A program made the position numbers and the translations under genes. Below are positions 7,768 through 47,868 of a stretch of 64,000 nt of DNA, piece after piece. The notes below the pieces were generated by a model. The model had not been told where the DNA came from, did not search any database, and saw only the letters and a list, made by a program, of their open reading frames with translations. Position 1 is the stretch's first letter. Each line of letters starts with the position of its first letter. Origin of the DNA: Anaerobacillus alkalidiazotrophicus (GTDB lineage Bacteria; Bacillota; Bacilli; Bacillales_H; Anaerobacillaceae); contig NZ_MLQS01000001.1 in assembly GCF_001866055.1 (NCBI RefSeq), positions 204,646-268,645 on the forward strand, given 5' to 3'.

Positions 7768-9159
7768 ATGTTCAATAGAAAAATAATTGTTCAAGCTACA
7801 GAAAATGGTTCACTACAAAAGAGTGATCAAATAAAAATTTCCCAATCTCTTTGTAAAAAGTGGGCTATACGCGATGGAGAGCAAGTCTCTATTAAGTTTG
7901 GAAATCACCTCGAGAAAGTTTATGTTAATGAAACTCCGTCACTTAAAACACCAACAATAGTAATCACTTTTGCCCTAAAGGAAAAATTATCGATACCCTT
8001 TGAAATATTACCAATACATTGTCTATATAATTCCAACGAGAATACACTTAAATTAGGACCAATTCTTACTTGTATTACTAATCAGATGTATCATGAACAA
8101 ACCCAATTTGGCACTATAACAACATTTTTTGAGGAAATGGCTCGTTTTGCAAAGAACCATCATATATTTTTTTATATTAAACCTTTGATCAATTGGGATG
8201 GAAGTTTTTTTGGTTATACATTTGAACAAGACAAATGGCAAGAGTATTTATTACCTTATCCCGATGCTGTCTATAACCGGATCGGATCACGTGGTTTCGA
8301 GGCATCTAAAGTATATCAAGAATTTTCATCACACTTACGAGAAAATGGAATTAATTATTTCAATCATAGTTTTTTAAATAAATGGGAAATAAATCAAGCC
8401 TTATCTAGTTTCCCTGAAGTGCAACCATATTTACCTGATACAACTTTATTTGGAGATTACGATACATTTGCAGAAAAACTCACCATTTACAATTGTATTT
8501 TCGTTAAACCTGTAAACGGTAGTCAAGGAAGACAAATCTTAAAGATTGAGAATAATGATCATGAATATAGCGTTTACTACTCGTCGTTCACACAGGAAAT
8601 TTCAACTAAATTTCAATCTAGCTACATTCTTTATCAGCGATTAAAAGAACGTCTAAAAAAGAAAACTTTTATCGTGCAACAAGGTATTGATCTTATTCAT
8701 ATTCAAGGCCGTCCACTTGATTTTCGCGTCTTATGTGTAAAAGGAGGCGAAAACGAATGGAAAGTCATATCTTCCGTTGCAAGGATTTCCCCGAAAGAAA
8801 AAATGGTTTCAAACCTTGCACAAGGCGGTGAACAGAAACGTCCACTCGATGTATTAACAGATTTATTTGATGAAAAGCTAGCACAACAATATGTAAAACT
8901 AATGAGCGAACTTGCTATTGAAGTAGCATATTTAATTAGTGAAAGTTATGAAGGACTCTTTGGCGAGCTTGGAATTGACATTGCATTAGATACTGAAGGA
9001 AAGCTTTGGATAATCGAGGTGAATTCAAAGCCATCTAAATCAGAAATAGAAATTGGAACTGAGCGGATTCGACCTTCAACTAGAGCAATCATAAATTATC
9101 TAGCCTTTTTATCAGGTTTTCCCATTCAAAACAACAGAAGGGGAAAAAAGGAGCGATAA
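7768..9159 (+). CDS. YheC/YheD-type ATP-grasp protein, copy 1
   Basis: 463-aa member of the YheC/YheD endospore-coat-associated family. The first 110 residues form a variable N-terminal domain; an ATP-grasp fold follows. Visible ATP-grasp landmarks are FVKPVNGSQGRQI (phosphate loop), IVQQGIDLI, RPLDFRVL, FGELGIDIAL and WIIEVNSKPS (metal-binding Glu/Asn pair). ATP-grasp enzymes ligate a carboxylate to an amine; the substrate of this family is unknown. It is the first of four co-directional paralogues and is followed after 4 bp by the next gene. The sub-assignment to YheD rather than YheC is uncertain. Confidence 0.85.
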   Translation: MFNRKIIVQATENGSLQKSDQIKISQSLCKKWAIRDGEQVSIKFGNHLEKVYVNETPSLKTPTIVITFALKEKLSIPFEILPIHCLYNSNENTLKLGPILTCITNQMYHEQTQFGTITTFFEEMARFAKNHHIFFYIKPLINWDGSFFGYTFEQDKWQEYLLPYPDAVYNRIGSRGFEASKVYQEFSSHLRENGINYFNHSFLNKWEINQALSSFPEVQPYLPDTTLFGDYDTFAEKLTIYNCIFVKPVNGSQGRQILKIENNDHEYSVYYSSFTQEISTKFQSSYILYQRLKERLKKKTFIVQQGIDLIHIQGRPLDFRVLCVKGGENEWKVISSVARISPKEKMVSNLAQGGEQKRPLDVLTDLFDEKLAQQYVKLMSELAIEVAYLISESYEGLFGELGIDIALDTEGKLWIIEVNSKPSKSEIEIGTERIRPSTRAIINYLAFLSGFPIQNNRRGKKER

Positions 9160-9163
9160 TTTC

Positions 9164-10240
9164 ATGGACAGTCTTGGAATTTTAGTAACGAAACATAATC
9201 AGGAGCAATCTTATTTTACTGATATAGCAATCGAAGGGAAAAAAGATAATATAACTATTTATTTATTTTTACCGAATGATGTCGACCTGCTAACTAAAAC
9301 AACTAAAGGAAGAAAATTTTGTCATATATCGAACAGCTGGATAGAAGACACCTTCCCAATTCCACCTTATATTTATGATCGGTGTTTTTATGAAAATAAA
9401 GTCGCTTATCTGAAGTACTTCCCTTATGTCTCCTGGCTTAAATCACAGTCCGATATCCACTTTCTTGGACACGGGCTCCCAAACAAATGGATTATATATA
9501 ATGCACTATTAGACGATGAAATTATCAAGGCTCATTTACCTAAAACTGCGGTGTTAGAAAGTTCAAATCAAATATTAACTTTTCTAGCTAATCAAACTTC
9601 GATTTTACTAAAACCCTCAAGTGGTTCTCAAGGAAAAGGCATTTTTATTTTATCAAATAATCAAGATGGTTTTACCTTACTCGCCAAAAGAGAAGGTAAG
9701 CCATTTTACAAACCTTTAACCAAAAAGCAACTTCAACATTTAGTTTTTAAAATAAGATCATATCAATATTTAATACAACCATTATTAACTTTAACTGATC
9801 ACGAACAACGCCCATTTGATTTACGTGTTTTTTTACAAAAAGATGAGAATGGAGATTGGAAAGAGGTTGGTAGAGGAATTCGTAAAGGAAAATTAGGTGA
9901 TTATACATCAAATCTAGGAAGCGGTGGGCAAGTAGCTACGTTTGAATCCTGGTACAATTCCTTGACTAATGAATATCAACATGCATTCCAACTCTCATTG
10001 CACAAATTATTACTACGAATACCTAGAATACTAGAAAGAAAAGGATACCAACTATTTGAGTTAGGCTTAGATTTTGGTATTGACAAGAATGGGAGACTTT
10101 GGCTCCTAGAAGCAAATTCAAAACCCGGTAGAAAAGTGGTTATGAGTCTATATCCACATAAAAAAGCCTTTCTAGCAAAAGCTCCGATAAAATATAGTTT
10201 ACTGCAAGAAAAGCGCAAGCGCCTTGGTCACGAGCGATAG
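9164..10240 (+). CDS. YheC/YheD-type ATP-grasp protein, copy 2 (3' end supplied by a repeat)
   Basis: 358-aa paralogue with a shortened N-terminal region. Motifs: LLKPSSGSQGKGIFI, YLIQPLLTLT, RPFDLRVF, FELGLDFGID and WLLEANSKPGRK. The strong AAAAAAGGAG site and the 4-bp gap to the previous gene show co-translation. The last residues, EKRKRLGHER, are encoded by the dispersed repeat beginning at 10206. The native C-terminus has therefore been replaced by repeat sequence. The catalytic core is intact, so the protein may still work. It lacks the roughly 90-residue N-terminal domain seen in copies 1 and 3. Confidence 0.85.
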   Translation: MDSLGILVTKHNQEQSYFTDIAIEGKKDNITIYLFLPNDVDLLTKTTKGRKFCHISNSWIEDTFPIPPYIYDRCFYENKVAYLKYFPYVSWLKSQSDIHFLGHGLPNKWIIYNALLDDEIIKAHLPKTAVLESSNQILTFLANQTSILLKPSSGSQGKGIFILSNNQDGFTLLAKREGKPFYKPLTKKQLQHLVFKIRSYQYLIQPLLTLTDHEQRPFDLRVFLQKDENGDWKEVGRGIRKGKLGDYTSNLGSGGQVATFESWYNSLTNEYQHAFQLSLHKLLLRIPRILERKGYQLFELGLDFGIDKNGRLWLLEANSKPGRKVVMSLYPHKKAFLAKAPIKYSLLQEKRKRLGHER

Positions 10241-10340
10241 GCACTGGAAGGCCTTTGACAGAAGCTGATTTTTACCTTTCAAAGAGGCGTGATGTACCTG
10301 GGCTCGTAGGATTGGAGCTAGACTGTTTTCTTACTTCAGA
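10206..10340 (+). repeat. GCGCAAGCGCC dispersed repeat, copy A
   Basis: Starts AAGAAAAGCGCAAGCGCC, continues TTGGTCACGAGCG and GCACTGGAAGGCC, and ends GGAGCTAGACTGTTTTCTTA. The same landmarks recur at 15912, 49935 (right half only) and 50772. The left end lies inside the preceding ATP-grasp gene and supplies its stop codon. Confidence 0.75.
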
Positions 10341-10451
10341 ATTTAATACCTTTTTTCCTTGGTAGTTCGTGCTAAAAGTAACAGTAAATTTGCTGTTTTT
10401 AAATAATAGGCTCAATTTATTTACTAATGCAATAGAAAGGGAGTTGGAATA

Positions 10452-11849
10452 ATGAAGCCAATTACTTTACCATTAAAGAAAGCCAAAAATATTTCAAAAA
10501 CATTTTTTGTACCATTAGAATTATTTAAAGAGTATGTAGAACGTGTTCAATTTCCTAAAGCTATTTCCTTTGGGACAAAAACTGTTCAATGTGAAGTTGC
10601 CCCTCATCCAGATAAAAAAAATGAATATTTACTTTCAAGTGATTTATGGGATGAACTTATGATTCCACAAGAAAGCATGATACATTTATTTCAAAAAGAT
10701 GAAACTATTTATATCGGTCCTCTTGTTGGGATATTTACTGCTGGTTTTACTCAGTTCCACTTACGTCCAATTGGAGAACGTTCATTATTTTTTGCCAAAC
10801 TCCTATCTGCTGAAAGAAAAGTAGGAGCCTTTTATTTCGTATTCGGTGCCCACCAAATTGACTGGGAAAGTGGAACAGTAAAAGGGTATTTCTATACAAA
10901 AGATGGTTGGAAGCAAATAAGAGTTCCACTTCCTAGCGTAGTTTATGATAGACTTCCTAATCGAAAGGTTGAAAGCTTAGAAATATCAAAACAAGTAAAA
11001 GATCGATTACAAAAAGAATACGACATTCCATGGTTTAACCCTGGTTTTTTTAACAAGTGGGATATTCATCAATTACTTATTGATGATGAGACCGCAAGCA
11101 AACATTTACCCGAGACCTATTTCCAACCTACGAGCTCAGATGTCCAAAAGCTGCTAGAAAAGTACAAACAAGTGTATATAAAGCCCGCAAATGGAAGTCT
11201 CGGACTTGGGATTCAACAATTAATTCAAAAAAAAGATGAACCACTCGTTTATTGTCGTTTTCGAAGTAATGAAGAAAATCGCTTAAGGAGATATTCTTCG
11301 TTAAAAAGATTAATTCGTCAACAGTTTCCTTATGGACTTAATGAGATGATTGCCCAACAAGGGATTAACTTATTAAAATGGAACAATAATCCGATCGATT
11401 TTCGTATTCACACAAATAAAAATGGGTATGGTGAATGGTGTGTTAGTGCCGTCGCAGCAAAAATTGCCGGATCAGGTAGTGTAACTACCCACGTAAAAAG
11501 CGGCGGTGAAATAAAGACAGTAAATGAAATTCTTCATGATATAGGGATTAACTCTGCCCTTAATAAAAAATTACATGCCACAGCGCTTTTACTCAGTGAA
11601 AAAATTGATAAAAAAATGTCGGGATTTATAGGAGAGATCGGTTTTGATATTGGTGTTGACCAAAATGAACACGTTTGGATGTTTGAGGCAAACTCTAAGC
11701 CTGGAAGAACTATTTTTTCCCACCCTAAATTAAAAAGTGACGATTTGTATTCAAGAAAACTACCTTTGCATTATGCTGTTTACTTATTTAAAAAGTCGAT
11801 AGAAAAACAGCCTGAGCTTGTGAATGCCAATGAACATTTTTTACGATAA
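10452..11849 (+). CDS. YheC/YheD-type ATP-grasp protein, copy 3
   Basis: 465-aa paralogue with the full N-terminal domain (residues about 1-110) and the ATP-grasp core: YIKPANGSLGLGIQQ, MIAQQGINLL, PIDFRIH, GEIGFDIGVD and MFEANSKPGRT. GAAAGGGAG precedes the ATG. It is separated from copy 2 by repeat A and about 110 bp of AT-rich DNA and overlaps the next gene by 26 bp. Family members associate with the spore coat; the enzymatic substrate is not known. Confidence 0.85.
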   Translation: MKPITLPLKKAKNISKTFFVPLELFKEYVERVQFPKAISFGTKTVQCEVAPHPDKKNEYLLSSDLWDELMIPQESMIHLFQKDETIYIGPLVGIFTAGFTQFHLRPIGERSLFFAKLLSAERKVGAFYFVFGAHQIDWESGTVKGYFYTKDGWKQIRVPLPSVVYDRLPNRKVESLEISKQVKDRLQKEYDIPWFNPGFFNKWDIHQLLIDDETASKHLPETYFQPTSSDVQKLLEKYKQVYIKPANGSLGLGIQQLIQKKDEPLVYCRFRSNEENRLRRYSSLKRLIRQQFPYGLNEMIAQQGINLLKWNNNPIDFRIHTNKNGYGEWCVSAVAAKIAGSGSVTTHVKSGGEIKTVNEILHDIGINSALNKKLHATALLLSEKIDKKMSGFIGEIGFDIGVDQNEHVWMFEANSKPGRTIFSHPKLKSDDLYSRKLPLHYAVYLFKKSIEKQPELVNANEHFLR

Positions 11850-12996
11850 TAAAAAACAGGAATGGCAAAGTCTAGTTAAAAAGCCTTTAAATTTCGGAAA
11901 AAATCTCCTTCCATTAAACTATGAAAATAAACCTAGTGGTAGTTGTTTTCATGTAAAAACAATTAACAACAAGGTTGGCCCTCTTATCGGTATATTAGCG
12001 AGTAGAGCGAATGGGAAGGAGTTCTATGGTAATCGTTCTACCTTCATAAAAATTCAAGATCAGCTACAAAAACATGGAGGTATTTCCTTTGTAATGACAC
12101 CTGAGCGAATAGATGAAGTATCAGTTGAAGGTTATTTTGTTCATGAAGGGAAGTGGCAAAAAGGGCTCTTCCCTCTCCCTGATATTTTCTATAACCGAAT
12201 TGCAACTTACCATGAAGAAAAAAGTAGTGAGATGCGAAAAGTTCAAGAAATTGCTAACAAAAATAGGATACCAATTTATAATCCGCACTTTTTTGAAAAA
12301 TGGGAAACATACAAACACCTAATCGAAAATAATGTAATTAAATATCATTTACCTGAAACAGACATTTTTACCGATAGGAAGCAACTTAAATCTTGGCTAG
12401 AAGACCATCAATCCTTGTTTATCAAACCCGTCCTTAGCAATCAAGGAAATGGTATTTCCGTTATTTCTAAAATTGAAGATAAATATATAATAAAGACAAA
12501 TAAATGGTGTAAATCCTTTAAAAACTTTGATGATGCATTTGCAAAAGTAAGTGAGAATTTACGAAAACGAAAAGCAATCATACAAAGAAAAGTTCACTTG
12601 AAAGAATACGAAGGTAACCCATACGATTTTCGTATTCTCGTTCAAAGAGTAAAGGACAAATGGTTTATGAGTGGTATTGGAGTCCGTTGCGCGAAAAAGG
12701 GTGGAGTCACTACTCATGTTCCCCAAGGCGGAAGAATCATTCCTTTAGTAGAGGTAAATCAAGAAATAAATACTGACCTAATTAGCAAAATTGCCATTGC
12801 AACTGCACATCAACTTGAACGCTCATACGGCTACTTATGTGAATTTTCCATTGACTTAGGAATAGACACTAATAATCAACATTGGATTTTTGAGGTAAAT
12901 GCAAAGCCAATGAAATTTGATGAGCCAGACATTGAAATGAAAGCATTAAATACGTTAATCAAATGTTTCTATAATGACTCTGGATTTGAGCTGTGA
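11824..12996 (+). CDS. YheC/YheD-type ATP-grasp protein, copy 4
   Basis: 390-aa paralogue whose start lies 26 bp inside copy 3. An alternative ATG two codons later would serve equally. Core motifs: FIKPVLSNQGNGIS (Ser-Asn replaces the usual Gly-Ser before the final glycines), IIQRKVHLKEY, PYDFRILVQ, CEFSIDLGID and WIFEVNAKPMK. The altered phosphate loop and QRKVH in place of QQGI suggest it has diverged in substrate or activity. A terminator overlaps the stop codon, so the cluster ends here. Confidence 0.83.
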   Translation: MPMNIFYDNKKQEWQSLVKKPLNFGKNLLPLNYENKPSGSCFHVKTINNKVGPLIGILASRANGKEFYGNRSTFIKIQDQLQKHGGISFVMTPERIDEVSVEGYFVHEGKWQKGLFPLPDIFYNRIATYHEEKSSEMRKVQEIANKNRIPIYNPHFFEKWETYKHLIENNVIKYHLPETDIFTDRKQLKSWLEDHQSLFIKPVLSNQGNGISVISKIEDKYIIKTNKWCKSFKNFDDAFAKVSENLRKRKAIIQRKVHLKEYEGNPYDFRILVQRVKDKWFMSGIGVRCAKKGGVTTHVPQGGRIIPLVEVNQEINTDLISKIAIATAHQLERSYGYLCEFSIDLGIDTNNQHWIFEVNAKPMKFDEPDIEMKALNTLIKCFYNDSGFEL

Positions 12997-16827: not shown

Positions 16828-18135
16828 TTATACATTTTTTGCTGTTTCATTCAGGTTTTCTGCCGATTCAGCAACAGAAGATGTCGCTTTTCCTATCTCT
16901 TCAATAACAAGAACTAAGTCTTTAAAGCCACCTTCCACTTTTTTTACTTCCTCCATACTTACCTCTAATGAGGATACAATTTCATTAAAGTTTTGTTTTG
17001 TATTTATTGTTTCTTTCTCACCTTCCCCAATAAAACCTTCAACTTCATTTAAGGACTTAAAAACATCGTTCATAAATTGAGAAGATTCTTTAATTAACGT
17101 TTTAATATTTTGCACCGAATTTTTTGTCTGCTCTGATAGCTTACGAACCTCATTTGCAACAACCGCAAATCCCTTGCCATGTTCTCCTGCTCTCGCAGCT
17201 TCAATAGCTGAATTTATAGCAAGTAAGTTTGTTTGTTCAGCGATATTTTGGACAATATTCACTACCTGTTGAATTTGCTCAGAAGAATGCATCAATTGCT
17301 CGACAACATTACTCATTTGAAGTGCACTCTCTTTAATAGTTGCCATTTTGATCTCTAAATCAATAATGCTTTTATTTCCTTTCATTGCAGCTTCTTTTGT
17401 TTCTTGGGAAGTATTGGAACTCTTAACCACTCGCTTACTTAAATCCATCGTACTTGAAATTAATTGCTCAACTGAGGCACTTGTTTCCTCAGATAAAGCA
17501 GCTAGTTCTTCACTTATATCAGTTATGCTATATTTTAGTTCATTTTTGACTTTTTCATATTCGACTTCTCTTTGAAGCAGATTTTCCTTCTCATATGCTT
17601 CAAGTACTAATTGCTGTTCAAAATTTAATAATTTACTGATTACATTAACACTGTCAGCTTGAGTAGACGGATCTGTAATATTTTTTTGGATGACTTGTTG
17701 TATTGAACTAAAAAGATTTTGAAAAGCACCCATATACCATTTTGGTTCTAAACCAATATGAATATGCATTTTTGCAACTTTAATTCTTTTTTCAATATAA
17801 TGGTAATCAATCACACCATTAAACATCTCAAAAATATGTGTTTCAAGTGTTTGGCGAAGACGATTTACGGAACTATGTTTTTCAATTATTTCCTTTAGGT
17901 TTTCCGCTTTTAATATTGTTTCATAGAATGTATCTACTAACGCTCCTTTATTTTCATTTAAAAGTGGCTGAAGTCCTTTAATTAATTTTAAATCTTCTAA
18001 TGTTAAATCAATAATTTTCAACTGTTTAATAATATCATCATTGTCTGTCATTATTATGCTCTTAAAATTTTGATCTACATTTATATGGTAGCCAGCATCC
18101 TCTGGTTTTTGTTTTAATGCATTAAAAAAATTCAT
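16828..18135 (-). CDS. hemAT: HemAT-type heme aerotaxis transducer
   Basis: 435-aa soluble chemoreceptor. Residues about 35-190 form a protoglobin sensor domain ([32 protein letters not shown], which holds the likely proximal histidine). Residues about 215-435 are an MCP signalling domain with the hairpin tip [18 protein letters not shown]. No transmembrane segment, as in B. subtilis HemAT. It binds oxygen at heme and signals to CheA. The che operon is not in the window. Monocistronic. Confidence 0.9.
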
Positions 18136-20138: not shown

Positions 20139-21185
20139 TTATAACTTACGGTATTGAATTTCCTTTACATTTAATCCATTTCCTAAAGTACTATAAACTT
20201 TTTTATCATGTGGGTCCAAGAGTTCATTCTTCTCATGATAAACTCTTGGCGTTTTATATAGGGTCAATAAAGCTCTTGCAAACGGCATCTGATGATAGCG
20301 CTCAGGCCACTTTTGTAAAATAAGATCTTTTACTAAAGGATAATATTTAGGATTCATTGCTGGAAAGAGATGATGTTCAGTGTGGTAAGAGAAATTAAAG
20401 TGCAACACATCTACCCACTTAGGAACAGTCACTGTTAGACAATTAGCCAATGGATCGTTAACATCTACTAAGGGGTTTAAGCGATGATTAGTTGAGATAT
20501 ACCCCATTACAATAGAATTAGCAATGAATAACGGTAATAAATAAGCAAAAAACCAAGCTACAGGTCCAATTATAAAAAGTAACCCTATCCAAAACATCCA
20601 TGGTAACACAAGTTGGATGAAAACGGCTGAACGATTTTTCATATTGAACTCTTTAAAATATAGAAAGAACATATTTATTGAGTGTATCGAAAACGATATC
20701 GCTAAATATAAAAAGCCAAATATAGAACGAACTTGTAAAGGTAATTTATAAACTAACCGGACAATCCAATTTTTTGAAAATTTATTTGCACTTGGCCAAG
20801 CGTCTGGGTCCTTAGTTTCATCTTGAGTGTGAACATGGTGCTCCATGTTATGCCATTTTCTCCATAAACGTGGACCAGTACATAGTGGCCAGAAAAAAAT
20901 TGCACCTAACAAATTTCTAATTCTCGGATTTCTAATTACTGTACCATGAAGAATTTCATGTCCTAAAAAACCCATTGCCGAAAAACTAAACCCAATGATT
21001 ATTGAAATAAATAAATTGACAATTATCGGTAATTGAATTTGACTAATCAATAACATTCCAGTAATGACAGTGATTAAATATGCTATTCCTCCAAATAACC
21101 TTGTTGGAACTGGCTTAAATGCCTCCTTTGGTAATTCTGGAGAAATTCTTGCTGCGTACCATCCAAACGTCTTAAGATCGTTCAT
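20139..21185 (-). CDS. Membrane fatty-acid desaturase
   Basis: 348-aa acyl-lipid desaturase. Three histidine boxes bind the di-iron centre: GHEILHG, HNMEHHVH and YHTEHHLFP. About four to six hydrophobic helices surround them (for example ITVITGMLLISQIQLPII, IGLLFIIGPVAWFFAYLLPL). Introduces double bonds into membrane acyl chains and needs oxygen and reduced ferredoxin; it typically maintains fluidity in the cold. A cold-shock gene lies nearby, but there is no operon link. Regiospecificity cannot be read. No DesK/DesR two-component pair is adjacent. Confidence 0.87.
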   Translation of the reverse strand: MNDLKTFGWYAARISPELPKEAFKPVPTRLFGGIAYLITVITGMLLISQIQLPIIVNLFISIIIGFSFSAMGFLGHEILHGTVIRNPRIRNLLGAIFFWPLCTGPRLWRKWHNMEHHVHTQDETKDPDAWPSANKFSKNWIVRLVYKLPLQVRSIFGFLYLAISFSIHSINMFFLYFKEFNMKNRSAVFIQLVLPWMFWIGLLFIIGPVAWFFAYLLPLFIANSIVMGYISTNHRLNPLVDVNDPLANCLTVTVPKWVDVLHFNFSYHTEHHLFPAMNPKYYPLVKDLILQKWPERYHQMPFARALLTLYKTPRVYHEKNELLDPHDKKVYSTLGNGLNVKEIQYRKL

Positions 21186-41195: not shown

Positions 41196-41234
41196 AAAAA
41201 GGTGGCACGAATTAATTTGAATCCGTAACCACCT
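41196..41234 (-). terminator. Hairpin after the dehydratase-like gene
   Basis: AGGTGG pairs with CCACCT; ACGGATT with AATTCGT inside. The minus-strand side ends TTTTTGC. Confidence 0.55.
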
Positions 41235-41247
41235 CTTGTTTAAAATA

Positions 41248-42867
41248 TCATTTAGCTCCTTCAAGTTTCGTACTTTTAGGAGAAAAGTGTTTCATAAAGC
41301 GATTAACCCCGTAAACCATATTAGCTGCAGTACAAGCAACAACATGATTACTTGTAGCTAGCGAATGAGTCCTTTTGGAAGCATGTACTGAACGTAGCGA
41401 CTCTTCATCTAACCCTTTAAAAGCAAGGGCTTCTGAAAATTCTTTTTGTGCTGCTTGTTTTGCCTTAAACAACATCATTTGAATACGACTATAAACATTT
41501 ACGGCTCCATCTCCTGTCGTTTCAATTGGAAGAAAAATAGCCTCCGGGTATCTTTCTGTGATTAACGATTGAACTCCATCTGATACTCCCGATGAAGGCA
41601 TACAACCAAATGGTTTCACTGAGATCGTCATATTAACCTTCTTTTTCATAACATTTAATATTAATTTTCCCACTTCCATATGTCCTTCGCCACCTCGGAG
41701 CTGATTATTATAGTGTTTGTTAGCTACGCTTGCAACCTCATCCATATCTGGTAAGTGATAATCATGTAAACCAATAATTTTTGCATAGGCTTGAAACCAT
41801 GCCTTAACCGTGAAGTCCGCTATTTTTAATAACGCTAAACGCTTAACAGGATTTTTTCCCTTTAATCCGAAACGACCTTCATCATCTTTACGCAACTGCA
41901 TACGCTTCTTTGTATCGTAACGTCCTTCCCAAATTAAGAACAAGATCCATGCTGTCAATGATTGTACATCAACTTCAGCGCCTTCCTCTTCTAAAAACTT
42001 CTGTAGTTGATAGTTTCCATCGCCCTCAGTTGTCATCGCCCAAAATTCCCCAATGATACTTACTTTCGGTTTAACGATACTTCGGTCTACCTTAACGGCT
42101 TCTAGAATTTTACGACAGTTATATAGTGACTTTATAATTGATTTCCTTTCACTAAAGGCATCATATAAAAGTGTTTTACATCTTTCTAACGCAGCATTTG
42201 TCGTCCCAGGAGTTACTTCATACGGGCGAATTCGGTAGCCTATCGCATTTAAAATATCACCTATTAATACCGCTTTTAAAAACGTAATGAAAAATGAACT
42301 ATCAAGCTTTAAAGCAGATTCTTCCCCAGTTGCTTGTTTCAAGCCACTTTGTTGTTGAAAGAGTAAGACTCGAAATCCATCAAAACCAGCATCACGAAGC
42401 GCCTTTCGATATTCAGTCACATATGTCCCAAACCGACATGGTCCACAAGATCCGCTTGTTACAAAAAGATATTTTTTTACTATTTCTTCTTTCGTTTTAC
42501 CTTCTACATCTCTTAAATACGTTAAATGTTTAATTAAATTTCCTACTGTAAAATAAGTTGGGTTACATTGCCCGCGGTTTCCAAATTCTTTTCCGAAACG
42601 TAATGCTTCAGTATCTGGGCATTCAAGATGAGCAACATTATAACCAATACCTTTTAATCCACCCGCCACTAAATAATCGTGAGCCATAGTAAGACCACCA
42701 AACAATATCGTTGTAGAATCTTTATCTTTTGCAAAAAACTGTCTTGGTACTGGATCAAACCAGTGTTTTTTCGTTTCATTCAGACCTAAAGCAACCTCTT
42801 GTTCTTCTCTGTAACGAAATAGCTCTTCTTCAAAGTTTTTTTCAACATTACTAACCTGCTTTTTCAT
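41248..42867 (-). CDS. 2-hydroxyglutaryl-CoA dehydratase D-component-like Fe-S protein
   Basis: 539-aa protein of the 2-hydroxyacyl-CoA dehydratase / double-cubane-cluster superfamily. Cysteines that could ligate Fe-S clusters: ECPDTEALRFGKE, NRGQCNPTYF, SGSCGPCRFGTYV (near residue 140), a late PFGCMPSSGVSDG and VVACTAANMVYG. It lies 23 bp downstream of the activase-like gene, with an AAAGGAG site between, so the two are co-expressed. In several anaerobes these two halves are, to my knowledge, one roughly 1400-aa protein. No acyl-CoA pathway genes are adjacent, so a catabolic dehydratase role is unsupported; substrate unknown. Confidence 0.82.
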   Translation of the reverse strand: MKKQVSNVEKNFEEELFRYREEQEVALGLNETKKHWFDPVPRQFFAKDKDSTTILFGGLTMAHDYLVAGGLKGIGYNVAHLECPDTEALRFGKEFGNRGQCNPTYFTVGNLIKHLTYLRDVEGKTKEEIVKKYLFVTSGSCGPCRFGTYVTEYRKALRDAGFDGFRVLLFQQQSGLKQATGEESALKLDSSFFITFLKAVLIGDILNAIGYRIRPYEVTPGTTNAALERCKTLLYDAFSERKSIIKSLYNCRKILEAVKVDRSIVKPKVSIIGEFWAMTTEGDGNYQLQKFLEEEGAEVDVQSLTAWILFLIWEGRYDTKKRMQLRKDDEGRFGLKGKNPVKRLALLKIADFTVKAWFQAYAKIIGLHDYHLPDMDEVASVANKHYNNQLRGGEGHMEVGKLILNVMKKKVNMTISVKPFGCMPSSGVSDGVQSLITERYPEAIFLPIETTGDGAVNVYSRIQMMLFKAKQAAQKEFSEALAFKGLDEESLRSVHASKRTHSLATSNHVVACTAANMVYGVNRFMKHFSPKSTKLEGAK

Positions 42868-42890
42868 TTTAGAAGTCTCCTTTAAGTTTT

Positions 42891-45800
42891 TTAGGATTGA
42901 GCTTTCTTTCTAGATAGCTCATCTATCGATTGAAGAATTTGGTTTCTTTCAAGCGATTTTCGCTTTTTCTCAATTAATTTTTCTAATTCTTCTTTTTTCC
43001 TTGCTAAATCTTGCAGGCGTTCTTCATTTAAACTTAGGCTATGAGCATAAGTTTTCACACGAATTTTTATCGACCCACTTGGTTTATTGGCATCAATATC
43101 ATGTAAAGCGGAATACGGAGTTCCAGCTGTTGATATGATCGAATCAATCAAACCATACGTCGGTGCATCATGACCACACTTAAAGCTAGATAAGTCCAAG
43201 ACTGCTACATGTGGGTGACGTGCCGCAAATTTTGCAGCCCAAACCTTTTGTACACTATTAGAGCTAAAGTTTTCCGGCCAAACATCTGTAACATCCAACG
43301 CATAATCGACTTTTTTACTTTCTAGATCCTCTTTAAAAAATCTCTTTAACCAAGCTTCATCTTTCGGTATAGAACGCATCGATAAAATCGGATAACCTAA
43401 CACCTGAAATTCATCCAAAACACCATGATTTAAGCCTGGATCAGAGTGATATGGTCTTCCTATCATTAAGATGGCTACTCGATTTTCAGCTTCTACCAGT
43501 TCTAATATTTCCTTACCTTTTTGCTGCATTTCTGCATCAAACTCACGCATTGCTTTCGTTGCTTCGTCTGCTGCAAAATCACTTTCATCTTCGGTTATTT
43601 GTAAGAACGATTCAAACGCTTCAAATAACTGTTTCTTTAGTAAGTTAGGTTCAGTAAAAGTGACTGCTGGGTCGAAATACTGTATATTTCTTTCTTTAAA
43701 AAAGTCTGTTTCTTTTGTAAACGCAGCTTTAATTACATTTGGAGCTCCAGCTACAATTGGACAACTCGCAGAATCAATGACATTTTTCATATGGCTATCG
43801 ATATGAGTAATACAAGGAAAAAAGATGCCATCTAGTGGCTTATTTTCTTTGTGATGTTTAAAAAGTAAATTATGAATGTGGGCTTGAGCAACCTTTGAAG
43901 GATAACACGGATCAATTGAACCGTATTTTCCACCAGCTTGCCACATTTCCTCACTTGTAAAATCACTAAAAACAATATTTTTCTCTGGTACACCTAGTGC
44001 CTCAAAATAGGTTCGCCAAAATGGTGCGGTTGACCAAATATTAAGTACCTTTGGAATACCAATACGTAAATTTTTCCGATGTTCTATTGCCGTTTCAGAA
44101 GAACGTTGAAACGTTCTCGTATAAGTAACCTTTTTTGTCCCTAATCCAAACATTGATGATTTTACTTTTACATCCTGAATCATAGTTGTTTTACTAGGTA
44201 AAGATCTAGGCTCATAAAAATGTTTATACATTCTTTTTGCTTCATAATCCACTAAGTTGGGATAATGTTTTTTTAGTTGATTCCGCTCTTTTGTCAAAGC
44301 TATTAATGCATCTTTATCTTCAACCGTTCCTTTTTCACAACTAAAACCTGAAATATAACGAGCGGTTTGGCCATCAGGAGTCTGTGTATCAATAAACGTC
44401 CGACTACATAAGTTAGGACAAAAGTTGCAACGAGTCGATTCATCATTTCGTGATTCGTAGGTCATTCCAATAGCAGATTCTAAACCGAGGAACGTTGAGT
44501 ACCCTCTTCTTTTTACAACACGAATTGTTTCCATTGCAGCCCCAATCGCACCTGCTTCCCCTGTGTGAGGGTGTACAAATACTTCAGCATCCGGCACACG
44601 TTCTTTTATGTAATCGACTTGTGCTTTTACGGCAGCTAAGTTATGTTGGGTACCACCTTGAAGTACAAACTTCCTACCTAATTCCGCCATCCTTGGTACT
44701 TGAACGACGTACTGCCACACATTTTTCGGTAATACAAGAGCTAAACCAGCTAATAATTCTTCTTTTGCATACCCTTCTTTTTGAAAATTCACACGGTCTG
44801 AATCTAAAAATACGGCGCACCCGTAAGAAAATTTCGGTGATAAATCTGCTCTAAAAGCAGCATCTGCATACTCTTGTATTGGGATACCAAATTGATCAGC
44901 CATTGCTTGTAAAAGCATGCCATTCCCTGCAGAACATTGGTTCGATAAACGAAAATTACGAATATCTCCATTTTTTAAAAAGAGAACTTTTATGTCTTGT
45001 CCACCAATGTCACATATAACATCAACATGACCGAAAAAGTGAACAGCACTCATCATATGGGCAACAGTTTCAACGATATTAACGTCAGCATTTAACGTTC
45101 TTTCTAATACGTCTGCAGCATATCCAGTTGCTCCAAATCCCATTACTTCAAGAATAGCCCCACTATCATAAATTTTGTTACGGATTTTTCCTAGTAACTC
45201 TCTAGTATCTTCAATCGGGTTACCTTTTGATAGTTGGTATTCTTTTAATATAATATTTCCTTCCATATCTACGAGGACAGCTTTAGATGAGGTTGATCCC
45301 CCATCTAACCCAATAACCGCTTGAATTTTTTGACCTTCTTTAAATTGCACTGGTGTAAATTTCGGAATGCTATATTCAATTCTAAATTTATCTAGCTCTT
45401 CTGCATTTTTTACTAAAGGAGCCCCTGCTTTTTCCCCTAATTTTGCTTTTCTACCGTGAGAAATAAAGGTTTTTAATTCCTCAATTCCTTTATAAACTCC
45501 AACTTCAGCTGGTTCATGCATACCATACATGACCGCTCCAAACGCAGCGTAATATTGAGCATTTTTCGGAATGAAAATTAACTCTTCTATCGGAACATCT
45601 TTAGGATATTCATAGCCTCTTTGGTCCCAGCTTTCAGGAATACGTTTTCTCCAACACTCTTGTAAGAAAGGTAGATAAGTGTTTGGTCCCCCTAGTAAAA
45701 GGACTTTATGTCGCAACGTATTCCCTCTTGTAAGTACAGATAAATTTTGCATAACAATTGCATCTGCTAGTGAACACATTATTTCAGAGGAAGGTATACT

Positions 45801-46379
45801 ACTTTTTACTAAATTAACAATATCAGTTTCAGCAAAAACACCACATTTCGCAGCTACATGATGTAACTTCGAATCATCAAAATGTAATTTTCCTACTTTC
45901 TCCTCCGGCATACCTACTTTTATCATACATTTATCAATGGTAGCTCCAGTTCCTGAAGCACATTTATCGTTCATCGAAGTAATTGCTTGCTTATCTCCTG
46001 TTTCTTCATTTTCTTTAAAGATAATAATTTTAGCGTCCTGCCCACCTAACTCGACAACACTACCAACATCTGGGTGTAATTCTTCGACTGTCATAGTGAC
46101 CGCATTTACTTCTTGAACAAATTTTGCTCCAATATGTTCAGCAATTGGACTTCCACCAGAACCTGTAATAAAAACTCGAATGTTTTCACTATTTATGTAT
46201 GAAAACTCATTACCAATTCGAATTAAAAATTCTAATACCATTTCTGCTTGTTTTGTATGATGCCTCTGATAATCAGACCATAAAATTTGTTTGTTAATAG
46301 GATTTACAACGGTAGCTTTAACCGTAGTCGAACCCACATCAATTCCTATAAGAATTGAATTTAGTTCCTCATTTTTCAC
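42891..46379 (-). CDS. Tandem BadF/BcrAD-type activase with DUF2229 region
   Basis: 1162-aa protein. Two consecutive ASKHA-fold ATPase domains: domain 1 (about residues 10-290) with GIDVGSTTVKATV, VELGGQDAKII and NDKCASGTGATID; domain 2 (about 340-620) with GLDGGSTSSKAVLVD, DIGGQDIKVLFLKNG and QCSAGNGMLLQAMA. Each has the Cys that normally holds a bridging [4Fe-4S] in activases. Then a TRCNFCPNLCSRTF cluster and a DUF2229/dehydratase-like region with PCYPSKVAQAHIHNLL and FPCITHIDSHMKN, ending in a charged coiled coil (residues about 1110-1162). ATP-driven electron injection into the partner is inferred from family. Confidence 0.85.
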   Translation of the reverse strand: MKNEELNSILIGIDVGSTTVKATVVNPINKQILWSDYQRHHTKQAEMVLEFLIRIGNEFSYINSENIRVFITGSGGSPIAEHIGAKFVQEVNAVTMTVEELHPDVGSVVELGGQDAKIIIFKENEETGDKQAITSMNDKCASGTGATIDKCMIKVGMPEEKVGKLHFDDSKLHHVAAKCGVFAETDIVNLVKSSIPSSEIMCSLADAIVMQNLSVLTRGNTLRHKVLLLGGPNTYLPFLQECWRKRIPESWDQRGYEYPKDVPIEELIFIPKNAQYYAAFGAVMYGMHEPAEVGVYKGIEELKTFISHGRKAKLGEKAGAPLVKNAEELDKFRIEYSIPKFTPVQFKEGQKIQAVIGLDGGSTSSKAVLVDMEGNIILKEYQLSKGNPIEDTRELLGKIRNKIYDSGAILEVMGFGATGYAADVLERTLNADVNIVETVAHMMSAVHFFGHVDVICDIGGQDIKVLFLKNGDIRNFRLSNQCSAGNGMLLQAMADQFGIPIQEYADAAFRADLSPKFSYGCAVFLDSDRVNFQKEGYAKEELLAGLALVLPKNVWQYVVQVPRMAELGRKFVLQGGTQHNLAAVKAQVDYIKERVPDAEVFVHPHTGEAGAIGAAMETIRVVKRRGYSTFLGLESAIGMTYESRNDESTRCNFCPNLCSRTFIDTQTPDGQTARYISGFSCEKGTVEDKDALIALTKERNQLKKHYPNLVDYEAKRMYKHFYEPRSLPSKTTMIQDVKVKSSMFGLGTKKVTYTRTFQRSSETAIEHRKNLRIGIPKVLNIWSTAPFWRTYFEALGVPEKNIVFSDFTSEEMWQAGGKYGSIDPCYPSKVAQAHIHNLLFKHHKENKPLDGIFFPCITHIDSHMKNVIDSASCPIVAGAPNVIKAAFTKETDFFKERNIQYFDPAVTFTEPNLLKKQLFEAFESFLQITEDESDFAADEATKAMREFDAEMQQKGKEILELVEAENRVAILMIGRPYHSDPGLNHGVLDEFQVLGYPILSMRSIPKDEAWLKRFFKEDLESKKVDYALDVTDVWPENFSSNSVQKVWAAKFAARHPHVAVLDLSSFKCGHDAPTYGLIDSIISTAGTPYSALHDIDANKPSGSIKIRVKTYAHSLSLNEERLQDLARKKEELEKLIEKKRKSLERNQILQSIDELSRKKAQS

Positions 46380-47040: not shown

Positions 47041-47076
47041 TCAAGAGAAACTTGGCTCAAGCCAAGTTTCTCTTGA
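47041..47076. other. Perfect 16-bp hairpin between tRNA-Leu and tRNA-Arg
   Basis: TCAAGAGAAACTTGGC-TCAA-GCCAAGTTTCTCTTGA, starting 5 bp from the tRNA-Leu 3' end. No U-run on either side, so it is more likely a processing structure or a small insertion than a terminator. Confidence 0.6.
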
Positions 47077-47762: not shown

Positions 47763-47868
47763 CTTGAAAGATATTATTTATCTCATTTTACATTATTTCC
47801 AAATTAATGCTGTGACAAAAATCACACTATTTTTCATTATTTAAGTACTATATTTCAAAAATTTCATA

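Follow-up and report, generated by a model that had tools for sequence, protein, structure and literature searches.

A two-gene ATP-driven iron–sulfur system of Anaerobacillus alkalidiazotrophicus as a putative third lineage alongside the PlsA-type and Haliovirga-type proteins

We analysed a stretch of 64,000 nucleotides from the genome of Anaerobacillus alkalidiazotrophicus (NCBI RefSeq assembly GCF_001866055.1, contig NZ_MLQS01000001.1, forward-strand positions 204,646 to 268,645; hereafter the window), in which two adjacent genes encode proteins that we call A and B. Their membership of the ATP-driven benzoyl-CoA reductase/2-hydroxyacyl-CoA dehydratase (BCR/HAD) superfamily is well supported, which bears out the original prediction of a split, ATP-driven iron–sulfur system related to BadF and 2-hydroxyacyl-CoA dehydratases. 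By analogy with the plasmalogen synthase PlsA and the glycerol ester reductase Ger, we propose that A and B probably form one ATP-driven radical reductase, which would most likely convert an acyl ester of a membrane glycerophospholipid into a vinyl or alkyl ether. This reading draws on homology, on shared cysteines and on gene linkage in Paenibacillaceae.

For the comparisons below, genome contigs were scanned with B, yielding 384 relatives confirmed by tblastn. The best 80 of the 384 loci were kept; 51 of these belong to Bacillota, and 66 carry complete A and B (47 complete pairs in Bacillota, the window not counted). Pair alignments comprise 67 rows, namely these 66 loci and the window.

Domain architecture and predicted fold

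Both open reading frames (ORFs) are intact, and their coordinates place the 539-residue B 23 bp after A, as had been predicted (Table 1). The predicted make-up of the 1162-residue A, with two activase domains (Act1 and Act2) and their cysteine pairs, a CX2CX3C motif (Cys651/654/658) and a DUF2229 region, was likewise recovered by ORF, Pfam and alignment analysis. Pfam recognised PF01869 in two stretches and PF09989 over residues 772–1003, the NCBIfam activase-domain model TIGR00241 scored above its cut-off, and a PDB sequence search with A returned activases only (1hux, 4eht, 9gai, 7yyl). B matched no Pfam or NCBIfam model and, in the PDB sequence search, nothing at E ≤ 0.001.

In AlphaFold2 models (mean predicted local distance difference test score 81.9 for A and 79.5 for B), the fold of B was recognisable: 13 of 13 PDB matches at E ≤ 0.001 were chains of the double-cubane cluster protein (DCCP), HadBC, BzdNO or MbdON, with 8–14% identity to B among these 13. 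The nine best matches of the A model were activases of HadBC/BzdNO/MbdON/DCCP-type systems. B together with the TIGR00241-positive activase part could thus represent a member of the families named at the outset (2-hydroxyacyl-CoA dehydratase, benzoyl-CoA reductase or double-cubane protein), with CoA esters or small molecules as substrates like those of the structural relatives. We regard this as very unlikely, since B lacks the family and PDB sequence matches noted above, and since the benzoyl-CoA reductase equivalogs score far under their cut-offs on A (104/578, 96/380 and 86/313 bits). Moreover, only four cysteines of B (101, 141, 144 and 422) are invariant across 43 rows. The active-site cluster of BzdO is described as held by three cysteines and a water or hydroxide ligand, and the double cubane of BzdN by six cysteines (PMC11971306). 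With four invariant cysteines against six ligands, B looks like a three-cysteine site; the expectation of a dehydratase/double-cubane-type protein was therefore right as to the superfamily fold and, by the cysteine count, wrong as to the double cubane. As foreseen for CoA-transferase and acyl-CoA genes, neither these nor a ligase gene were recognised nearby, in a list of 49 window ORFs of at least 100 aa and Pfam scans of 14 window proteins, which is short of a full annotation.

A further candidate role is that of an ATP-driven device that delivers electrons to, or activates, another metalloenzyme without itself being an enzyme. A weak match of the activase part to methanogenesis marker 15 (74 bits, cut-off 456) points that way, but the idea is barely plausible: the three-cysteine sites of both reductase halves (A825/873/1068 and B101/144/422) are kept in 67/67 pair rows, and no metalloenzyme partner is prominent among the neighbour families shown (25 per tally, see below). 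The activase cysteines 140, 179, 482 and 521 are kept in all 67 rows as well.

Comparison with PlsA-type and Haliovirga-type chains

The preferred assignment to a PlsA/Ger-like reductase derives first from full-length homology. Relatives fused into one chain of about 1400 aa had been anticipated; such chains, in which the domains follow an identical order, were found. A aligns over 96% of its length with a Listeria PlsA-type chain at 28.6–28.8% identity (H6, H8), and A plus B are collinear end to end with 16 PlsA-type chains (the set as first collected, a Haliovirga chain included), at 27–30% identity for A and 23–26% for B against their C-terminal part. These chains are homologues and not the assayed proteins; they share with the pair the order Act1-Act2-Red1-Red2, in which B supplies Red2.

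In a joint alignment of the 67 pair rows with the 16 PlsA-type rows, 14 candidate iron–sulfur cysteines were common to both sets: A140, 179, 482, 521, 651, 654, 658, 681, 825, 873 and 1068, and B101, 144 and 422. The conservation check proposed for the cluster cysteines thus came out positive in every pair row. The sole gap concerns A140, present in 15 of 16 PlsA-type rows, the remaining row being without that stretch. The same 14 cysteines were conserved again when Haliovirga-type chains were added as a third set. Other positions separate the sets. Cysteines that never vary within the pair, but do not hold throughout the PlsA-type set, are A151, A242, A456 and B141. At B141, 8/9 Haliovirga-type rows also carry Cys, against Gly in 15/15 PlsA-type rows; A486 is Asn in the pair versus Cys in PlsA-type chains. 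The pair is also longer (1701 aa, against 1312–1593 aa for the 16 chains, taken as mechanical ORFs). The segment between A 1139 and B 38 is missing from PlsA-type chains and largely helical in the AlphaFold2 models, in which it would be a possible A–B docking element.

In a tree of 46 pair rows and the 16 PlsA-type rows, each set formed one clade with a Shimodaira–Hasegawa-like approximate likelihood ratio test (SH-aLRT) support of 100, and the pair fell outside the PlsA-type clade; its designation as PlsA is thus not supported. Addition of eight Haliovirga-like proteins, chosen from 120 listed, gave three clades, each with SH-aLRT 100. Both trees come from quick searches and are midpoint-rooted, without an outside outgroup; they carry a long-branch warning, for L099 above all. 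The Haliovirga/Spirochaeta/Fibrobacter-type chains, labelled ‘acyl-CoA dehydratase activase’ (1441–1554 aa among the 120 listed), resemble the pair in domain order and in Cys B141, but are single chains. On these alignments, the pair is best read as a third lineage beside the PlsA-type and Haliovirga-type chains.

Among characterised systems, plasmalogen synthase is described (PMC12838417) as a two-gene plsA-plsR unit in Clostridium perfringens and as a single-gene form in E. faecalis, L. cremoris and B. longum. The C. perfringens PlsA/PlsR are CPE1194/1195, plsA/plsR orthologues are reported in Listeria (PMC9702350), and single-gene plsA is in print for Enterococcus and Lactococcus. In its two-gene layout the pair therefore resembles the published C. 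perfringens unit, and a Fusobacterium PlsA-type homologue is likewise a two-gene unit. Ger, from T. maritima (treated in PMC8788747) and Desulfatibacillum alkenivorans, is described as PlsA-like with two activase domains, and D. alkenivorans is described with Ger and ether cardiolipins (PMC11150832). Accessions printed in PMC8788747 and PMC11150832 are Tmari_0479 for T. maritima, SHJ90043.1 for D. alkenivorans and Q8XL48/Q8XL47 for C. perfringens. We liken the pair, which also has two activase domains, to this description of Ger and not to its sequence; a PF09989 match was present in the T. maritima control genome. A printed criterion of one versus two activase domains does not separate the clades in our Pfam scan, because two PF01869 stretches occurred in 5/5 PlsA- or Haliovirga-type proteins scanned.

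Gene neighbourhood

The second line of evidence is the recurrence of cardiolipin synthase genes beside the pair. A phospholipase D (PLD)-family gene lies within the flanks (≤8 kb) of 18 of the 80 loci, as direct neighbour in 16, at 827 bp with one ORF between in one, and at 6.9 kb in one. A cardiolipin-synthase-like gene is found within 1 kb of 17 of the 47 complete Bacillota pairs, all in Paenibacillaceae, and 7/7 of those tested exceed the NCBIfam TIGR04265 cut-off. The 17 cases fall into three arrangements: upstream divergent (11), downstream on the same strand (5) and downstream on the opposite strand (1). In 17 pair-bearing genomes, PLDc_N matches number 1–5 per genome and include short frames (2–5 per 4.4–8.1 Mb in the 14 Paenibacillaceae genomes checked), so that by our own estimate chance adjacency would occur in about one locus in a thousand. 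Well-supported branches of the tree force at least five changes of PLD-gene presence or absence.

PLD families also top the Pfam tally of 150 near-neighbour ORFs, which cover 40 of the 51 Bacillota loci, with 14 occurrences; a methyltransferase is next with five. Other glycerolipid-type genes in the flanks are mostly not adjacent to the pair. Clusters typed by one representative each comprise an MGDG_synth-type glycosyltransferase in six loci (1.3–6.0 kb away), a diacylglycerol kinase in four (0.1–5.5 kb away) and a phosphodiesterase in nine; in L045 a CMAS gene comes after the pair. The neighbourhood comparison had been proposed as a search for a linked pathway; what recurred was the cardiolipin synthase of Paenibacillaceae. 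The 25 families shown for each tally (150 Bacillota and 118 other neighbour ORFs; rarer families are not shown) include no CoA-transferase, and two of the 118 non-Bacillota ORFs have acyl-CoA dehydrogenase domains.

A number of observations weigh against a glycerolipid substrate. The pair sits on the longest internal branch of the tree (4.39 + 2.13 substitutions per site), and its mean identities to Haliovirga-type (28.1%) and PlsA-type chains (27.3%) are lower than that between these two (36.0%). Of the columns conserved to at least 90% per set, 159 agree in all three sets, 68 are specific to Haliovirga- and PlsA-type chains together, and only four and seven join the pair to the Haliovirga-type and to the PlsA-type set, respectively. 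With the pair so deeply separated from both other clades, transfer of a substrate to it is uncertain. The PLD link is limited to Paenibacillaceae (18/35 loci: Paenibacillus 14/18, Cohnella 2/3, Fontibacillus 1/1, Chengkuizengella 1/1); no PLD gene was found in the flanks of 6 Brevibacillus, 5 Aneurinibacillus, 1 unassigned and 16 other Bacillota loci, and no cardiolipin-synthase-like neighbour in the window. The arrangement states need 11 changes on the tree versus 15.6 in shuffles and are thus clustered by kinship. No Pfam family occurs more than twice among the 118 neighbour ORFs of non-Bacillota loci, whose GC-rich contigs were subject to heuristic ORF calls. Finally, the titles and abstract openings examined from the open-licence literature report no ether lipids from hosts shown to carry the pair, which is no proof of absence.

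These observations bear on the alternative that the pair is a third-clade ATP-driven iron–sulfur reductase with a non-glycerolipid substrate (another acyl ester, a thioester or a cofactor), cardiolipin synthase being merely adjacent in Paenibacillaceae. Its deep separation, the few residues shared with either other clade alone, and the want of a recurrent lipid neighbourhood outside Bacillota and of an adjacent lipid gene in the window all favour such a substrate, as does conservation within the pair set (mean 67.7% in 22 rows that span five or more phylum labels, versus 56.2% and 54.7% in the other two sets). We nonetheless rate this alternative as somewhat unlikely, given that a linkage in three arrangements is hard to obtain by chance with 2–5 PLDc_N matches per genome and that every shared iron–sulfur cysteine is retained.

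Proposed mechanism

Should the pair be a PlsA/Ger-like reductase, family chemistry suggests that Act1 and Act2 would bind one [4Fe-4S] cluster through Cys140, 179, 482 and 521. ATP use would drive single low-potential electrons into putative clusters of Red1 (Cys825/873/1068) and Red2 (B Cys101/144/422). A ketyl radical could then form at the ester carbonyl, followed by protonation and dehydration. Phosphatidylglycerol, cardiolipin or phosphatidylethanolamine are candidate substrate lipids.

Distribution of the pair

The two-gene layout is found in 66/66 complete loci, always on a single strand. The split had been singled out as a feature of the window; it is real here and not special to this locus. 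A precedes B in 65 of the 66; only L079, an over-long mechanical ORF, departs from this order. With 384 relatives from one scan and A homologues up to 90% identical elsewhere, the family extends far beyond chance; identity to the window A is 63–90% across label groups, the 90% being in a Bacillaceae genome, and concatenated A and B share 89% identity with their Anaerobacillus arseniciselenatis counterparts. Among 151 Bacilli genomes, A. arseniciselenatis also has the closest match (87%) to the glycerol kinase of the window. Brevibacillus brevis has an A homologue at 80%, and Paenibacillus apiarius (L035) carries the pair as well.

Record labels of the loci include Bacillaceae, Paenibacillaceae, Alicyclobacillaceae and Myxococcota, and most are Bacillales or Myxococcota-labelled metagenome-assembled genomes (MAGs). 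Single MAGs are labelled Acidobacteriota, Planctomycetota and Nitrospirota, and a few loci Pseudomonadota. One metagenome contig labelled Klebsiella pneumoniae (L072) groups with Myxococcota-labelled sequences in the tree and is presumably mis-binned. Most host genera are aerobic or facultative. PF09989 (DUF2229) also matches in the control genomes of the aerobes Thermus composti and Deinobacterium chartae.

B had matches in 28 of 151 Bacilli genomes (centre genome included). Fourteen were of the pair type (best match 72–85%); in 11 of the 28 the match was a single chain at 26–30% identity, its open frame 1318–1462 aa long, and four had short weak matches only. A pair-type B and a PlsA-type single chain of about 1450 aa coexist in one Bacilli genome (G085, loci L106 and L107), a further distinction between the two types. 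Among same-order genomes, B matched in 14 of 299: nine of the pair type (62–88%), four single chains and one fragment. A second B at 64–67% identity occurs in A. arseniciselenatis (G001), G231 and G260. A. arseniciselenatis has two complete pairs (L001:4254–9517 and L044:4501–9452; second B 67% identical), and a gene for a FeoB-type ferrous iron transporter (L001:2063–4156) lies directly upstream of the first on the same strand.

Published counts of genomes that carry homologues of Mss as well as Ger take in five Paenibacillaceae and one Bacillaceae species, with hits that may be the pair or single chains (PMC13274423). Ger homologues are described in Black Sea MAGs of Myxococcota, Planctomycetota and Nitrospirota (PMC11868695), and the ether bonds of Solibacter usitatus are hypothesised to be the work of its PlsAR homologues (PMC10087280). 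A 1989 paper reported plasmalogen in Bacillus firmus OF4, so that at least one Bacillaceae species is said to be able to make it.

The locus in A. alkalidiazotrophicus

Table 1. Features of the A–B locus, numbered from the first letter of the window.
Feature	Position	Strand	Description
Protein A	42891..46379	minus	1162 aa, GTG start; Act1-Act2-Red1; ORF, PF01869 (two stretches), PF09989, activase structures
Protein B	41248..42867	minus	539 aa, ATG start; reductase half Red2; ORF, HadBC/DCCP/BzdNO/MbdON fold
Activase domain 1	45687..46352	minus	A residues 10–231 with Cys140 and Cys179; 9gai_C aligned to 10–231
Activase domain 2	44532..45317	minus	A residues 355–616 with Cys482 and Cys521; PF01869, TIGR00241 above cut-off
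CX2CX3C...C motif	44337..44429	minus	A Cys651, 654, 658 and 681; in 67/67 pair rows and 16/16 PlsA-type rows
DUF2229 domain	43371..44066	minus	A residues 772–1003, first part of Red1; Cys825 and Cys873 inside, Cys1068 beyond
Predicted long C-terminal helix of A	42897..43079	minus	A residues 1101–1161; AlphaFold2 model
Terminator-like hairpin ending in T run	41197..41237	minus	Between B and spoVR; folding energy versus shuffles

The hairpin 3' of B has a folding energy of -19.6 kcal/mol (z -4.8), a stability equalled in 0 of 200 shuffles. Beyond it lie spoVR (PF04293) and then an NlpC/P60-LysM gene. On the other side, A is preceded by five tRNA genes on the same strand; the interval up to the next gene holds tRNA genes only, with no ORF of at least 80 aa. 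In facultative anaerobes, a TetR-type regulator gene is described directly upstream of PlsA/PlsR (Goldfine 2022). Its presence is a weak criterion: of ten ORFs tested upstream of PlsA-type chains, two were recognised as TetR, which is also annotated in Collinsella.

Several other elements of the window were recorded. An FNR/CRP-like palindrome, TGTGACAAAAATCACA, lies at 47811–47826, where the phosphoglucomutase gene and the tRNA array are separated, and the window has no other exact match to this pattern; a perfect 17-nt inverted repeat occupies 47041–47076 between the tRNA-Arg and tRNA-Leu genes. Elsewhere are a fatty acid desaturase gene (20139–21185, PF00487), probably an O2-dependent lipid gene, and a fusion of a protoglobin with a methyl-accepting chemotaxis domain (16828–18135), a likely oxygen sensor. 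Four ATP-grasp-like genes stand in a row at 7768–12996, the one at 7768–9159 being of the YheC/D type by scan and the other three alike by eye.

Discussion

In the titles and abstract openings examined from the open-licence literature, the pair is not described as a lineage of its own, which is no proof of absence. We suggest, tentatively and as a possibility short of even odds, that it could be a third lineage of ATP-driven lipid ester reductases, whose products in largely aerobic spore-formers, Myxococcota and other phyla would be ether lipids (ether cardiolipin, perhaps), with O2-sensitive radical iron–sulfur chemistry building membranes there.

If this is true, many Paenibacillaceae, other Bacillales and members of several other phyla would owe a capacity for ether lipids to a conserved two-gene system, an unexpected trait in largely air-breathing bacteria. 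It would then be relevant to where bacterial ether-lipid biomarkers come from, and to the way in which an O2-sensitive class of enzymes may serve aerobes or their spores.

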